A DNA stretch of 41,114 bases, from assembly GCA_029864335.1 (NCBI GenBank), contig JAOTTS010000019.1:1-41114 (forward strand). Reading direction: 5' to 3'. Source of the stretch: Candidatus Nitrosopumilus sp. Its GTDB lineage: Archaea; Thermoproteota; Nitrososphaeria; Nitrososphaerales; Nitrosopumilaceae. A program made the translations under genes and the position numbers. Of this stretch, positions 31,018-36,163 are shown in pieces. Within the stretch, counting starts at the first letter, position 1, and each line of letters starts with the position of its first letter. The notes under the pieces are model-generated. The model was given only the letters and a program-made list of their open reading frames with translations. It searched no databases and was not told the origin of the DNA.

Positions 31018-31677
31018 TTGAAGTCAATTAAATCACTAAACAAAAAGATTGCAAGCTGCAAAAAATGTCCAAGATTAGCAGCCTACATCAGAGATGTTGC
31101 AAAAAACAAGGTAAGACGATTCAAAGATGAGAAATATTATGGCAAACCTCTTTCAGGATTTGGTGATGTCAATGCTAAATTACTCATTGTAGGTTTAGCT
31201 CCAGCTGCACATGGTGGAAATAGAACAGGGAGAATGTTTACAGGGGATTCATCAGGGGACTGGCTGGCAAAAGTAATGCACAAACATGGATTTGCATCAA
31301 TTTCTACTAGTCAGAACATTAATGATGGAATGATCCTCAAAAATGCCTACATTACTGCAGCAGTTAGGTGTGCACCACCTCAAAATAAACCAACCCGAGA
31401 AGAGAAGGACACTTGTTTTGGATTCTTGGAGCAAGAAAGAAAGATTCTAGAAAACATCACAATAGTTCTTTGCCTTGGAAAAATAGCATATGATACCGTT
31501 TGTAAATTGTATAAGGTAAAACCAGAAAAATTTGGGCATAACAAACTATTCGAATATGATACAATTCGGATCCTCACATCATATCACCCTTCAAAACAAA
31601 ATACACAGACTGGACGATTAACTTGGATACAATGGTCCGCAGTGTTTGCAAAGGCCAAAAAATTAACTCTAACTTGA
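31018..31677 (+). CDS. Uracil-DNA glycosylase, family 5 (UDGb)
   Basis: A 219-residue DNA repair enzyme that removes uracil from DNA. Motif A is VGLAPAAHGGNRTGRMFTGD at about residues 58-77, the family 5 version in which the usual catalytic Asp/Asn is absent. Motif C is TSYHPSKQNTQTGRL near residue 184. N-terminal CKKCPRL and later Cys (VRCAPP, DTCFGF) supply the [4Fe-4S] ligands. The start is a TTG (31018), and the fold begins at once (KSIKSLNKKIASCKKCPRLA), so no upstream start is needed. Length is typical for UDGb (200-230). Transcribed alone. Confidence 0.92.
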   Translation: MKSIKSLNKKIASCKKCPRLAAYIRDVAKNKVRRFKDEKYYGKPLSGFGDVNAKLLIVGLAPAAHGGNRTGRMFTGDSSGDWLAKVMHKHGFASISTSQNINDGMILKNAYITAAVRCAPPQNKPTREEKDTCFGFLEQERKILENITIVLCLGKIAYDTVCKLYKVKPEKFGHNKLFEYDTIRILTSYHPSKQNTQTGRLTWIQWSAVFAKAKKLTLT

Positions 31678-31713
31678 ATTAATGAGTTCTAGCGAAAAAT
31701 AAAAATATTGAAA

Positions 31714-31840
31714 ATGTCCATACTACTAAATTGCTGCAGGTAATGGCTGTTCAATATGCAATTTAGAACATGATGGAGATTTTTACAGTTTTTGTAAGTG
31801 TTCTTGTCATGATAGAATTGCAAGGGAAATTGTAGACTAG
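31714..31840 (+). pseudogene. Broken small Cys-rich zinc protein
   Basis: One frame encodes a convincing Cys-rich tail (GNGCSICNLEHDGDFYSFCK then CSCHDRIAREIVD, ending TAG at 31838-31840) but has no start codon: upstream it is closed by TAA at 31728. In another frame ATG at 31714 reads MSILLNCC before a stop. Joining the two with a one-base change at about 31736 gives a small zinc protein similar in style to those at 26356 and 32867. Either a frameshifted gene or a sequence error. Confidence 0.4.
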
Positions 31841-31877
31841 AAATACTTCAAATTAAAATCTTAAACTCAGATTTTTT

Positions 31878-31988
31878 TTAATCAGTATTCTCATACAGTT
31901 TTTGAATTTGTTCAATAGTTTTGGGGTCTAATTTCTCAAATAACTGTTGTAACTCTTTTTCATCTAATTCCTCATCATGAAACAGCAT
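31878..31988 (-). CDS. Small acidic helical protein, possibly frameshifted
   Basis: A 36-residue ORF, MLFHDEELDEKELQQLFEKL then DPKTIEQIQKLYENTD, strongly coding-like (amphipathic, regular leucines). An ATG further upstream (32013) in a neighbouring frame gives MSKLMQNIDAVS and then a stop; removing one T near 31979 would fuse it to DEELDEKELQQ as a 44-residue protein. So the intact gene is probably 31878-32013 with a one-base insertion. Function unknown. Confidence 0.45.
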   Translation of the reverse strand: MLFHDEELDEKELQQLFEKLDPKTIEQIQKLYENTD

Positions 31989-32081
31989 CTATGTTCTGCA
32001 TTAATTTTGACATTAACCATGATTATCATAGTAGATTGCAAACAATGTACAAAAGACTCAAAAAATAGTCATTGTTATACT

Positions 32082-32477
32082 TTACAATCCATAAAATTCA
32101 GACCACTGGTGCTCTAGCTTATAAATTATTTTCCAACCAAGCCTATCAATGTTTACACTTGGTTCTGCAATAACCATTAAGATGTACCTTCCAAAAGGAA
32201 AACTCATCATTACGACCTTTTCTCTCCTAGAAGAAGAATATTTGACTCTGCCCAAATTTGCATCAAACCCTTTTCTATTTGCAACTCTGTGTGCTAATTC
32301 TTGAAATGTTTGCCTTCGTCTTGCATCATTTTCAAAAGGAATAACATCATCCTTGAAATCACCTGCAATTAATTCCCCCTTGCAATCAATCAAACCACAA
32401 TATCGAATTTCAGGTTCGGCCAAAATATCTTTGATTTTATTTTTGATATCTTCAATTGAAAATTTCTCTTTAGACAT
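32082..32477 (-). CDS. Conserved-looking protein of unknown function, Roadblock-like
   Basis: A 131-residue cytoplasmic protein. It begins with a charged helix (MSKEKFSIEDIKNKIKDILA), then strand-turn-strand RYCGLIDCKGELIAGDFKDD, a helix ARRRQTFQELAHRVANRKGF, and strands KYSSSRREKVVMMSFPFGRY and ILMVIAEPSVN. The (I/V)D-x-x-G-E(L)-(I/V)AG strand pair followed by FxFxxYxLMV is the layout of Roadblock/LC7-type alpha-beta-alpha domains, but I assign that only by eye. Such domains in archaea are often partners of small GTPases; none is adjacent. Alone, ATG at 32477. Confidence 0.6.
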   Translation of the reverse strand: MSKEKFSIEDIKNKIKDILAEPEIRYCGLIDCKGELIAGDFKDDVIPFENDARRRQTFQELAHRVANRKGFDANLGRVKYSSSRREKVVMMSFPFGRYILMVIAEPSVNIDRLGWKIIYKLEHQWSEFYGL

Positions 32478-32664
32478 ATGAGATTAGATGTTTTTTTGTG
32501 TATTTAACACAAGTATCCAATCGATGAAATTGTTTGGTTAAATCGATGTTAGAAAACAATCTAAATCATAAATCAATATACATTTGTATTGTTATATCAT
32601 AAATAATAAATGAATGTTAAGATTTTTCTCAGAATACTTTAAATTTCATTTTCACAAAAGTGTT

Positions 32665-32829
32665 ATGACGAGGTCTATCATATCTGCCGAAATTCAAAAG
32701 GATAGATTTGAGGAGGTGGACAGATAGAAAAAAAGGAAAACACGAAAAAAGATGGAAGCATCTAGAATTCGTAGTTTTTCAGTATACCTCGTTTCCTATT
32801 TTGTTACAAATCAATCTTATAGATTTTGA
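32665..32829 (+). pseudogene. Leaderless mini-ORF interrupted by TAG
   Basis: A TATA element (CTTTAAATTT, about 32637-32646) lies 25 bases before an ATG at 32665, the exact leaderless distance. The ORF reads MTRSIISAEIQKDRFEEVDR then TAG (32725-32727). The same frame continues as a highly basic stretch (KKRKTRKKMEASRIRSF) to TGA at 32827-32829. This looks like a small basic protein gene broken by one point mutation, or a 20-residue peptide. Otherwise the 389-base region between the genes at 32477 and 32867 shows no gene. Confidence 0.35.
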
Positions 32830-32866
32830 AGCAAATACTTAGATTAGTTGCAGCATCCAAAAAAAT

Positions 32867-33055
32867 GTGAAGAAATGTCAATGTAACAAATGTGATTGTC
32901 CAAATGAAATAAGAGAATTTGGTCACAGATATGAAGAAGAAAATGCCATAGTAGAAGCTGAATTTGAAAATGATGCAGATAAAGTCGAATCAATTATCAA
33001 AGAGATTTGTGATTTTTGTGAGAAAGGTCAACACCAAGGTCAGCCAAATGCCTAA
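32867..33055 (+). CDS. Small zinc-binding protein
   Basis: A 62-residue protein starting at GTG 32867: MKKCQCNKCDCPNEIREFGH, an acidic helix (EEENAIVEAEFENDADKVES), then KEICDFCEKGQHQGQ. Four Cys in the first eleven residues and a CxxC-x(3)-H at the end suggest two metal sites bracketing an acidic helix. A TATA-like AAATACTTAGA at 32833-32843 is about 25-30 bases upstream. Family unknown; small proteins like this recur in ammonia-oxidising archaea. Confidence 0.7.
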   Translation: MKKCQCNKCDCPNEIREFGHRYEEENAIVEAEFENDADKVESIIKEICDFCEKGQHQGQPNA

Positions 33056-33096
33056 AGAATGTCTAATTATTTATCTACATTCATTATAAAAGTAAT

Positions 33097-34569
33097 ATGC
33101 AATCTCCCATGAAAGAGTTAATTTTTGTTATTTTTTTGTTTACAATTCCTGCAGCATTTGCTCAAGAGTATCAAGAGCTTGGAGTTGAAGTGGAGACAGT
33201 AGCTGATAACCTCACTATTCCATGGAGTATTGATTGGTTACCTGATGGAACGATATTATTTACAGAAAGAAACGGACACCTCAGGATAATTCAAAATGGA
33301 GAATTATTAGAAGAACCATTATTGTCACTTGAAGTTAGTGGAGTAGAAGGTGGAATGCTAGGAATTGCAGTGGATCCAAAATTTGAAGAAAATAATTTCA
33401 TATATCTCTATTATACATACAATGAATTTTTATCAACAATAAACAAACTTGTTAGATTCCAACTTGTTGAGGGAATATTAACAGAAGATAAAATATTACT
33501 TGATGGAATCCCTGGTGGACCATTTCATGACGGTGGAAGAATTCAGTTTGGACCAGATGAAAAATTATACATCACAACAGGAGAAGCTGGAGATCCAAGA
33601 CTTGCACAGGATCTGAATTCGTTGGGTGGAAAGATTCTCAGAATTAATTCTGATGGAACGATACCTGTAGATAACCCATTGCAGGATTCTCCAATTTATT
33701 CAATAGGTCATAGAAATCCTCAAGGAATTGATTGGGACAAATCTGGAAATCTGGTTGCAACAGAGCATGGTCCATCAGGATGGAGAGGAATAGCACATGA
33801 TGAAATCAATGTGATAATTCCAGGCACAAATTATGGATGGCCTGACATTATTGGTGATGAGACAGCAGAAGGTTTGCAAAAACCAATCCTGCATACAGGT
33901 GATGATACATGGGCACCATCAGGTGCAGAATTCTACTATGGAGACAAAATTCTTAACTGGACTGGAAAATATTTTGTTGCAACACTCAGAGGCAGTCATC
34001 TTCACATGGTAGAGTTTGATTTAGAAAATAATTTGGTGCTGTCTCACGAAAAACTATTCCAAGATGAATTTGGAAGACTACGAGATGTACAAACAGGACC
34101 TGATGGATTATTGTATATTCTTACAAGCAATCAGGATAGCAGAGGATTTCCAAATCCTAATGATGATAAAATTCTCAGAATCATGCCAATATATGAAATT
34201 AATAGTTTTGAGGAGTGTGTTGAATCTGGAAATCCAATAATGGAATCATATCCAAGGCAATGTAAAACTGGAGATGGGAAACATTTCGTTGAAGTGAGTT
34301 CTAAAATTCCTGAATGGATTAGAAAAACTGCAAAGTGGTGGTCATTAAATCAAATTTCAAATAAAGACTACTCATTAGGTCTTCAATATCTTATAGAAAA
34401 GGACATCATTACAATTCCATTCGGAACAACATCTGAAGGGGATTCTGAGGAGCAATTACCATCATGGTTACGAAAAGATGCAGGATGGTGGAGTCAGGGG
34501 TTAATATCAGATGAAGAGTATTTCAAAAGTATTCAATGGATGATAAATAATGAATTTATCAAAATCTAG
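33097..34569 (+). CDS. Secreted PQQ-type sugar dehydrogenase (GdhB/Asd-like) with thaumarchaeal C-terminal repeats
   Basis: A 490-residue exported protein. The signal peptide is MQSPMKELIFVIFLFTIPAA up to about AFAQ. Residues 25-365 are a six-bladed propeller of the soluble glucose/aldose sugar dehydrogenase family: NLTIPWSIDWLPDGTILFTE, GGMLGIAVDPKFEENNFIYL, GGPFHDGGRIQFGPDEKLYI with the catalytic-type His, and SIGHRNPQGIDWDKSGNLVA. A small Cys-pair module follows (EECVESGNPIMESYPRQCKT, about 369-400). Two tandem C-terminal repeats come last, IPEWIRKTAKWWSLNQISNK (from 404) and LPSWLRKDAGWWSQGLISDE (from 453). These repeats recur on secreted thaumarchaeal proteins and may tether it to the cell surface. 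TATA (ATTATTTATC, 33064-33073) is 27 bases upstream. Confidence 0.87.
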   Translation: MQSPMKELIFVIFLFTIPAAFAQEYQELGVEVETVADNLTIPWSIDWLPDGTILFTERNGHLRIIQNGELLEEPLLSLEVSGVEGGMLGIAVDPKFEENNFIYLYYTYNEFLSTINKLVRFQLVEGILTEDKILLDGIPGGPFHDGGRIQFGPDEKLYITTGEAGDPRLAQDLNSLGGKILRINSDGTIPVDNPLQDSPIYSIGHRNPQGIDWDKSGNLVATEHGPSGWRGIAHDEINVIIPGTNYGWPDIIGDETAEGLQKPILHTGDDTWAPSGAEFYYGDKILNWTGKYFVATLRGSHLHMVEFDLENNLVLSHEKLFQDEFGRLRDVQTGPDGLLYILTSNQDSRGFPNPNDDKILRIMPIYEINSFEECVESGNPIMESYPRQCKTGDGKHFVEVSSKIPEWIRKTAKWWSLNQISNKDYSLGLQYLIEKDIITIPFGTTSEGDSEEQLPSWLRKDAGWWSQGLISDEEYFKSIQWMINNEFIKI

Positions 34570-34584
34570 TAAATGCTTAAAAAG

Positions 34585-34821
34585 CTAATTTTTGTTTAGA
34601 TTTTCAAGCGATTCAGGTTTTTCTAAAAGTTGAGAATTAAAATCATAATCACGAATGTGCAACATGGTATTGACAGTCAAAAATCTGTTTAGTCCTGTAT
34701 AGTCAATCGTATTTCCAATTTCAAGTCACTCAGATTCAAGATATACTAGTGTCAAAAAGATACTAATTATTAGAATAATTTGGAATCCCACAATAAATGA
34801 AATTTTTTGTTTTGCTGTCAA
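34585..34821 (-). pseudogene. Broken fragment of a membrane-anchored (sensor-like) protein
   Basis: One frame of 79 codons reads MTAKQKISFIVGFQIILIIS, a basic start plus a membrane helix (IFLTLVYLES), then TGA at 34726-34728. It goes on as LEIGNTIDYTGLNRFLTVNT and HIRDYDFNSQLLEKPESLEN before a TAG. A helix followed by an extracytoplasmic stretch resembles the N terminus of sensor histidine kinases, but no kinase part remains. Start is a TTG. Most likely a decaying gene end; could also be a small secreted protein with one nonsense codon. Confidence 0.45.
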
Positions 34822-35040
34822 TGACGGATTAGACTAGTTTCAGTCTTTTTACTCTTTATTAGAATCTAGTTTTGAGAAATTTCATTTTTTGATACAGGTG
34901 GAATGTAAATAAATTTTGATTCTCTTTTCTTCTTCAGACTAAACATAAGTTAGTTTTTCAGAATTTTGATATAAACTTCAAGTAGAAATTATCCATTTGA
35001 TTTTGAAATTGCAAGAATTCTCAGAATATTCCAAATGCCT

Positions 35041-35070
35041 AAAAATCAGTGGTAGACTTTACTGATTTTT
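35041..35070. repeat. Perfect 10-bp inverted repeat
   Basis: AAAAATCAGT (35041-35050) and ACTGATTTTT (35061-35070) form a perfect 10-bp stem with a 10-base loop and T-run on either strand. It could be a terminator for the fragment or a remnant of a mobile element end. No gene is adjacent. Confidence 0.45.
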
Positions 35071-35206
35071 AAAATTGTTTTGAGTTGGAATTTTACCAAT
35101 TTGCCAATCATTGGTTTAAAGTTAAAAATATCCGTAATCAATTGAAATTTGGCTAGAATACTTCTGATCGCATCTAATTAGCAGTATTTGAGATTTGGGA
35201 TCTACT

Positions 35207-35218
35207 TTTTATTTAATA
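35207..35218 (+). promoter_or_regulatory. TATA box of the candidate structured RNA
   Basis: TTTTATTTAATA centred near 35212 is followed, 25 bases later (35237), by the first base of the RNA's closing stem. This is the usual archaeal TATA-to-start distance. Confidence 0.5.
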
Positions 35219-35236
35219 ACTGCATATAGTAATTCA

Positions 35237-35338
35237 GGAAGCTGGCACAATATCCTCTTGTCTGAATGCTGGTAATTGTTTACCGGTCTATGCATACAGC
35301 AGGGCTGTGTAAAGATTAGTCCGCAATGGTCAGCTTTC
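35237..35338 (+). ncRNA. Candidate structured RNA of about 102 bases
   Basis: The transcript predicted from the TATA box would begin with GGAAGCTG (35237-35244), which pairs with CAGCTTTC (35331-35338), extended by G45-T30 and C46-G29 to about ten pairs. Inside are three hairpins: ACAA-tatcctc-TTGT (35247-35261, weak), CTGGTAA-ttgt-TTACCGG (35269-35286), and ATACAGC-agg-GCTGTGT (35294-35310). A single-stranded stretch (AAAGATTAGTCCGCAAT) precedes the closing strand. The segment is more GC-rich than its surroundings. It matches no RNA I know: it is not a tRNA, and lacks C/D or H/ACA boxes. It may be an independent RNA, or a structured leader of the DUF72 gene whose first possible ATG (35326) lies inside the stem. 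Confidence 0.5.
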
Positions 35339-36163
35339 AAATTTTTAAAAACAGAATCGAATCAAGCAATAGAGTGAATATCAAAATAGGGTGTACTGGG
35401 TGGAGATATCAAGGATGGTCTGGGACATTTTATCCCAGAAATCTCAAGAGCCAAGATTGGCTCAGATACTATTCACAGATTTTTGAAATTACTGAAATTA
35501 ATTCTACATTTTACGGGATTCCTTCTCAAGAGATTGTAAGGAGGTGGAATGCTGACACTCCAAGGCATTTCAGATTTACAGCCAAATTTCCATGTAATTA
35601 CGCATGAAAAGAGGCTGGAAAGGGTAAATTCTGAAATATTTTCATTCTTGTCATCTCTTGTTCCAATTCACGAAAAGGTTTCAGCACTTGTTTTGCAATT
35701 GCCCCCATCATTATCATTTGATGAGGCAAAACCAAGACTAGAAGAATTGTTTGATATTTTGCCTGATGATTTTTTGTATCCAATTGAAGGAAGACATGAA
35801 TCGTGGTTTTCAGATGATGCTTTAACATATCTAAAACAAAACAAACATTGTCTTGTATGGAATGATGTTGCAGGAGTTGACAATCCAATGCGAGTTACTG
35901 CAAATTTTCTTTATGTTAGATTGATTGGAGATCGTTCTATTCTCGATTCAAAATTTGGAAAAGTTATAAAAGATAAAAAAGAACTGATCAAAAACTGGGC
36001 AAAGAAACTACAAAACATTCAAGACATTCCACTTGCCATGATATTGACAAATAATCATTATGAATGATTTAGTCCTGCAACTGCAAATTCTTTGAGAATG
36101 CAGCTTGGAATGCGGGAATTAATGTGGGAAGAAAAAAGACAAAAGACATTAGGTAATTTTTAA
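35326..36163 (+). pseudogene. Broken DUF72 family gene
   Basis: A DUF72 (YecE-like TIM-barrel) gene of about 240-265 codons in pieces. The first part has KIGCTGWRYQGWSGTFYPRN and EITEINSTFYGIPSQEIVRR up to FTAKFPCN; then a frameshift near 35600 is needed to reach VITHEKRLERVNSEIFSFLS. That frame runs through LQLPPSLSFDEAKPRLEELF and YPIEGRHESWFSDDALTYLK to NNHYE, where TGA (36065-36067) replaces the Gly codon of the family motif NNHYEGFSPATANSL. Downstream FSPATANSLRMQLGMRELMW continues in frame to TAA at 36161. One frameshift plus one nonsense codon mean no full protein. DUF72 proteins have no established role. The family start fits a GTG at 35374 better than the ATG at 35326. Confidence 0.85.

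Follow-up and report, generated by a model that had tools for sequence, protein, structure and literature searches.

In the window (the whole 41,114-nucleotide stretch of DNA that was analysed), a 102-base element on the plus strand runs from P1 to P1', the two halves of a closing stem, with promoter-like signals before it and a T-run and a broken DUF72 gene behind it (Table 1). The sequence-only reading had proposed this segment as a candidate structured RNA preceded by a TATA box of its own, a proposal now upheld by covariation, by a promoter common to copies in unrelated contexts, and by the absence of an Rfam match. The covariance model scores the window copy at 78.8 bits on the plus strand versus 6.9 bits on the minus strand. 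As had been noticed from the letters, the segment is less AT-rich than its surroundings (G+C 0.46, versus 0.25–0.31 just upstream), and it folds to -34 kcal/mol compared with -25.0±3.0 kcal/mol for shuffles (z -3.0; 1 of 200 as good). No reading frame is conserved, with at most 12 of 89 copies open in any frame. The region at 34570–35190 is gene-poor, and 444 of its bases are missing from the close relative G013; it may hold remnants of a lost gene.

Table 1. Features of the RNA element and its immediate surroundings (positions in the window)
Feature	Positions	Strand	Observation
GATC promoter element, BRE-like position	35199–35202	+	GATC at -36 to -38 in 61/88 relatives
TATA-like box TTTTTATTT	35206–35214	+	TTTTA at -28 to -30 in 75/88 relatives
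Whole RNA element	35237–35338	+	115.2, 78.9 and 80.1 bits with models R1, R2 and R3
P1, 5' strand GGAAGCTGGC	35237–35246	+	96.0% of cells paired; two-sided changes in 9/10 pairs
P2 hairpin ACAAT-ATCCT-CTTGT	35247–35261	+	94.4% paired; two-sided changes in 3/5 pairs; sequence nearly constant
J2/3, variable single strand, possible pairing region	35262–35272	+	Most variable stretch of the family
P3a, 5' strand TAAT	35273–35276	+	97.2% paired; two-sided changes in 3/4 pairs
Internal loop, 5' side TGT	35277–35279	+	TGT or GTG type among relatives
P3b/P3c, 5' strand TTAC CGGTCT	35280–35289	+	98.6% paired; two-sided changes in 10/12 pairs (apex included)
Apical loop AT-GC-ATACA-GC-A	35290–35301	+	Invariant UA at 35295–35296 (U 100%, A 99%)
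P3c' GGGCTG, one-base bulge T, P3b' GTAA	35302–35312	+	Covariation
Internal loop, invariant AG	35313–35314	+	A 100%, G 98%
P3a, 3' strand ATTA	35315–35318	+	Covariation in 89 copies
P1, 3' strand GTCAGCTTTC	35329–35338	+	Covariation in 89 copies
T-run, likely archaeal terminator	35342–35346	+	TTTT at most 15 nt from the RNA 3' end in 62/88 relatives
DUF72 pseudogene (frameshift and stop)	35374–36163	+	Neighbour, outside the RNA unit; intact homologue PF01904

Promoter and terminator signals

The TATA box read from the window recurs in its relatives, whose consensus promoter consists of GATC at about -37 and TTTTA at about -29, usually with a T-run after the closing stem (counts in Table 1 are for the 88 copies with enough upstream DNA, and distances are taken from the first base of the RNA). 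Between loci of the window's own type (subtype A), upstream identity is 0.28–0.33 beyond -60 and 0.59 at -40 to -20. The pattern alone is not rarer than chance, GATCn3-6TTTTAT matching once in the window, at the RNA, with about 1.7 matches expected, and the combined promoter and RNA-start pattern matches once in the genome, equal to its backward control; the promoter argument thus derives from a spacing that is fixed across relatives rather than from rarity in the window or genome. The GATC–TATA pair was not found upstream of either tRNA in the window (two regions checked). Judging by these signals, transcription would begin no more than a few bases from 35237 and stop in the T-run after 35338, and the paired ends together with a short U-tail would stabilise the RNA.

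Consensus fold and covariation

The consensus fold is a three-way arrangement in which the ends are paired in P1 (10 bp), followed by a short P2 hairpin (five pairs around a UCC loop) and a long P3 arm. The latter is built of P3a (4 bp), P3b (4 bp) and P3c (6 bp), with an internal loop of three bases opposite AG, a one-base bulge between P3b and P3c, a two-pair GC clamp and a UA-containing loop. Among 89 distinct copies from six genera, a set that was aligned to the model and is therefore biased towards its fold, 96.9% of cells pair, two-sided changes occur in 25 of 31 pairs, and double-change cells number 322 versus 109±11 in shuffles; sliding the partner by 1–3 columns in these copies brings pairing down to 29–47%. 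A smaller set of 28 hand-checked sequences also pairs in 96.9% of cells, with 99 two-sided cells versus 35±6 in shuffles, and when members of subtypes B and C are folded one at a time, independently of the model, P1 and P3 come out again (z -2.7 to -5.5). Pairing in P2 has less support because its sequence is nearly constant, and its innermost pair is broken in the window copy.

Conservation of the stems originally drawn in the window is divided. The closing stem, placed from the letters alone at 35237–35246/35329–35338, corresponds to P1 and covaries among the 89 relatives, but the two inner hairpins (CTGGTAA/TTACCGG and ATACAGC/GCTGTGT) give way to the P3 arm: although they appear in the minimum-energy fold of the window, neither shows a two-sided change in 12 close relatives, and the second is broken in 4–8 of these at three positions. 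The same bases form the supported P3 pairing, TTAC CGGTCT with GGGCTG (T) GTAA, which is 100% paired with two two-sided pairs in the 12 relatives. The window copy is atypical in this respect, its consensus fold lying 11 kcal/mol above its own minimum. Pairing of the P2 loop (AUCC) with GGAU in P3 as a pseudoknot was considered and set aside, being feasible in subtypes B and C, not in A, and involving a GGAU already paired in P3a.

Distribution, subtypes and neighbouring genes

A nucleotide search of 61 genomes located the element in 12 (the window's own included) at 77–100% identity, and model R1, built from those 12 sequences, gave matches in 49 of the 95 genomes of the genus, up to five in one genome and some of them diverged copies of full length. 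R2, built from 28 hand-segmented copies, found the RNA in 95 of the 250 genomes from the archaeal family to which the window belongs, in six of 22 genera, with 1–5 copies per genome; named contigs with matches belong to Nitrosopumilus and to unclassified Thaumarchaeota/Nitrososphaerota. Samples of the order, class and phylum gave no match outside the window's taxonomic family, so that the search doubles as a specificity control of the covariance models. A deep rescan with a third model, R3, of 24 genomes, most of them previously matchless, left 22 without a copy, several of these complete; in the complete genomes of the same genus that have none, the RNA is dispensable or has diverged. The window's genome holds a single copy by the deeper scan, and no other match above 10 bits, such as one of subtype C near the UDG gene, occurs at 31500–35500.

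Three subtypes can be distinguished. Subtype A, that of the window, lies just before DUF72, which usually starts 28–52 bases downstream on the same strand. Subtype B, which shares about 64% identity with the window copy, is dispersed, with several copies in some genomes. Subtype C is found between DUF72 and a UDG gene in several genomes, and differs in the sequence of P1 and in the P2 hairpin while carrying the same P3 arm. Subtype C copies near UDG/DUF72 were recorded at L013:1007-1114 (minus strand), L062, L072, L076, L101 and L113–L116, with a P2 of GGATATT/AATATCC. The two copies in genome G069 are 94% alike, whereas one of them and its counterpart at the orthologous G086 locus are 79% alike, a pattern suggesting gene conversion or recent duplication and a shared partner. 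The G069 copies L051 and L052 have an identical core and different P1 stems, each compensated. In another genome, G092, copies L055 and L057 have identical downstream and different upstream flanks, as by recombination or a chimeric assembly.

Neighbouring genes change from one subtype to the next. A conserved membrane/zinc-ribbon gene begins 16–61 bases after several copies in genus g31, and the gene for TFIIE-alpha 46 bases after one in g36, while subtype B copies and those of other genera adjoin varied genes in either orientation, among them genes for an Lrp/AsnC-type protein, TFIIE-alpha, an arginase-family protein, a cupredoxin-like protein and a histidine kinase. No constant neighbour emerged across subtypes; the recurring DUF6659 and sensor proteins are probably just large families. 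The window's DUF72 gene had been called dead, and its frameshift and stop bear this out, although it is 95.9% identical to the intact gene of G013 (whose RNA is 94.1% identical), so that the breakage is of recent date or may even be an artefact of assembly. As the loss is recent, the window alone could not settle whether the RNA is a leader of DUF72, and the argument is carried by other genomes, where the gene beside the RNA has acquired eight stops (G018), shrunk to a 50-residue remnant (G015), been partly deleted (G107) or was not found (G088). In genomes with a broken or missing DUF72, the window's included, the RNA still scores 79–92 bits, and 83–92 bits in the four others.

Function and alternative readings

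Retention of the RNA independently of its neighbour, together with the mixture of neighbouring genes and orientations, argues for an autonomous gene rather than a DUF72 leader, as does the presence of several copies in some genomes. The fixed promoter distance and the compensatory change in secondary structure are what an autonomous small RNA should display, and from comparative evidence the element is very probably a structured RNA in its own right. Our preferred reading goes further and holds that it is an autonomous RNA gene acting in trans, whatever its exact partner, to which we assign a probability of roughly 0.75. How it would act is a more tentative matter. The RNA would function as a ribonucleoprotein, with the invariant unpaired bases serving as a protein-binding site and, in the simplest version, J2/3 pairing with target RNAs. 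This strand is the natural candidate for target pairing because it is exposed and is the most variable part of the molecule; against this, it is partly conserved within subtypes. Regulation in trans by such pairing is a working idea that we hold at somewhat less than even odds. A broader and rather doubtful proposal is that the family represents a new class of archaeal ribonucleoprotein RNA, in which the fold and a protein-binding core (putatively the AG internal loop, the UA apical loop and the UCC hairpin loop) do not change, while copy-specific exposed strands direct the RNA to different targets.

The main rival concerns mechanism and not autonomy. The same RNA might act in trans as a housekeeping scaffold, either as part of a protein complex or by sequestering a protein through the invariant AG, UA and UCC, with J2/3 as a mere spacer. 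The constancy of unpaired AG and UA across subtypes despite extensive change in the stems is in keeping with such a role, as is the closer likeness of the G069 copies to each other than to the orthologous copy elsewhere, as if one partner had been kept. Its absence from several complete genomes, however, would be unusual for a housekeeping part, and no candidate protein has come forward, Ro60/TROVE being absent from the 21 genomes searched. We regard the scaffold as possible, if on the unlikely side.

A structured leader of DUF72, possibly regulatory, had been suggested from the letters. As a cis-regulatory, riboswitch-like element it would read a signal and end or allow transcription into the downstream gene (DUF72 here), and the same-strand placement before DUF72 in most subtype A loci, as well as the short distances to downstream genes in g31 and g36, would suit it. 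A leader or riboswitch should nonetheless precede a constant gene on its own strand, whereas the genes downstream of this RNA vary between subtypes and often lie on the opposite strand. The suggestion fares no better at DUF72 itself, where the RNA outlives its supposed target. Furthermore, the T-run at the end of the RNA may, from its spacing, double as a TATA box for DUF72 transcribed as a leaderless mRNA, in which case the gene would have a TATA-like run of its own. The leader is very improbable and is rejected.

About as improbable is that the RNA belongs to a mobile or viral element and was spread by transposition. Patchy occurrence and variable copy number and location could be taken to favour such an origin, but no recurrent transposase or integrase gene was found beside the copies, three exact patterns had no match in 2.9 million viral contigs, and the long-term covariation reflects selection on the RNA itself.

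That a known stable RNA (box C/D, H/ACA, 5S-like, tRNA-like or Y RNA) is concealed here is the least credible alternative, since the likeness to 5S rRNA and Y RNA is confined to a general outline of paired ends and a three-way shape, and model searches contradict it. As had been stated without a database at hand, the segment fits no known family: in Rfam 15 no family reached its curated threshold and the window's sole matches were two tRNAs, nothing matched the segment even at E up to 5, and the window scanned together with 17 subtype B/C loci gave only tRNAs, permissive scans adding only chance matches. Archaeal box C/D and H/ACA guides fall in the same size class of stable small RNAs; here, however, a C box is present in only one of 89 copies and never followed by a D box, the order RUGAUGA to CUGA occurs in 0/89, ACA (the box by which H/ACA was judged) follows just 3' of P1 in only 2/89, and no K-turn motif was recognised. 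Y RNAs and other Ro60 partners likewise close a structured RNA of about 100 nt with a terminal stem, but a Ro60/TROVE partner was detected in 0/21 genomes, in which the positive control was detected, and no model matched. The resemblance to 5S rRNA ends with a terminal stem of about 10 bp and two arms: the first arm here is a 15-nt hairpin, neither sequence nor model matches, and genomes carry several diverged copies or none. Closest in kind are the archaeal intergenic trans-acting small RNAs, which have their own promoter, an intergenic location, a length of about 100 nt, a U-rich end and variable neighbours; the present family differs in that its multi-helix fold is strongly conserved from genus to genus and in having paralogous copies, and is known from sequence alone.

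The evidence is of the same type as that for earlier candidate structured RNAs, namely covariation without a known function (Weinberg et al. 2010, PMC2864571), and the text of that study names no Nitrosopumilus or Cenarchaeum motif. A search of the open literature returned nothing on small RNAs of ammonia-oxidising archaea and, for Nitrosopumilus or thaumarchaeal small RNAs, nothing on this RNA family. To the extent of these searches, the family is new, as are its fold and promoter signature, although an autonomous small RNA is of a known kind, and on present genomes the family appears confined to one family of ammonia-oxidising archaea and lies outside Rfam. It may have been detected earlier as an unnamed transcript: Shi and co-workers reportedly described, in Nature in 2009, marine small-RNA clusters from metatranscriptomes, some of them perhaps archaeal.

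Few cells in the ocean are as abundant as ammonia-oxidising archaea. A clear structure, a common promoter, distinct subtypes, and carriers and non-carriers within a single genus make the function testable by comparison, and the covariance model can be applied at once to existing marine metatranscriptomes. Two exact-pattern matches were met in contigs labelled bacterial, neither of them counted in the distribution. One (L128) looks like a chance match; the other (L129, JAJCYI010000158.1) was probably misbinned, an archaeal contig now placed in a Saprospiraceae genome, and carries the RNA pattern together with an intact DUF72 gene that is 81% identical to the archaeal one.
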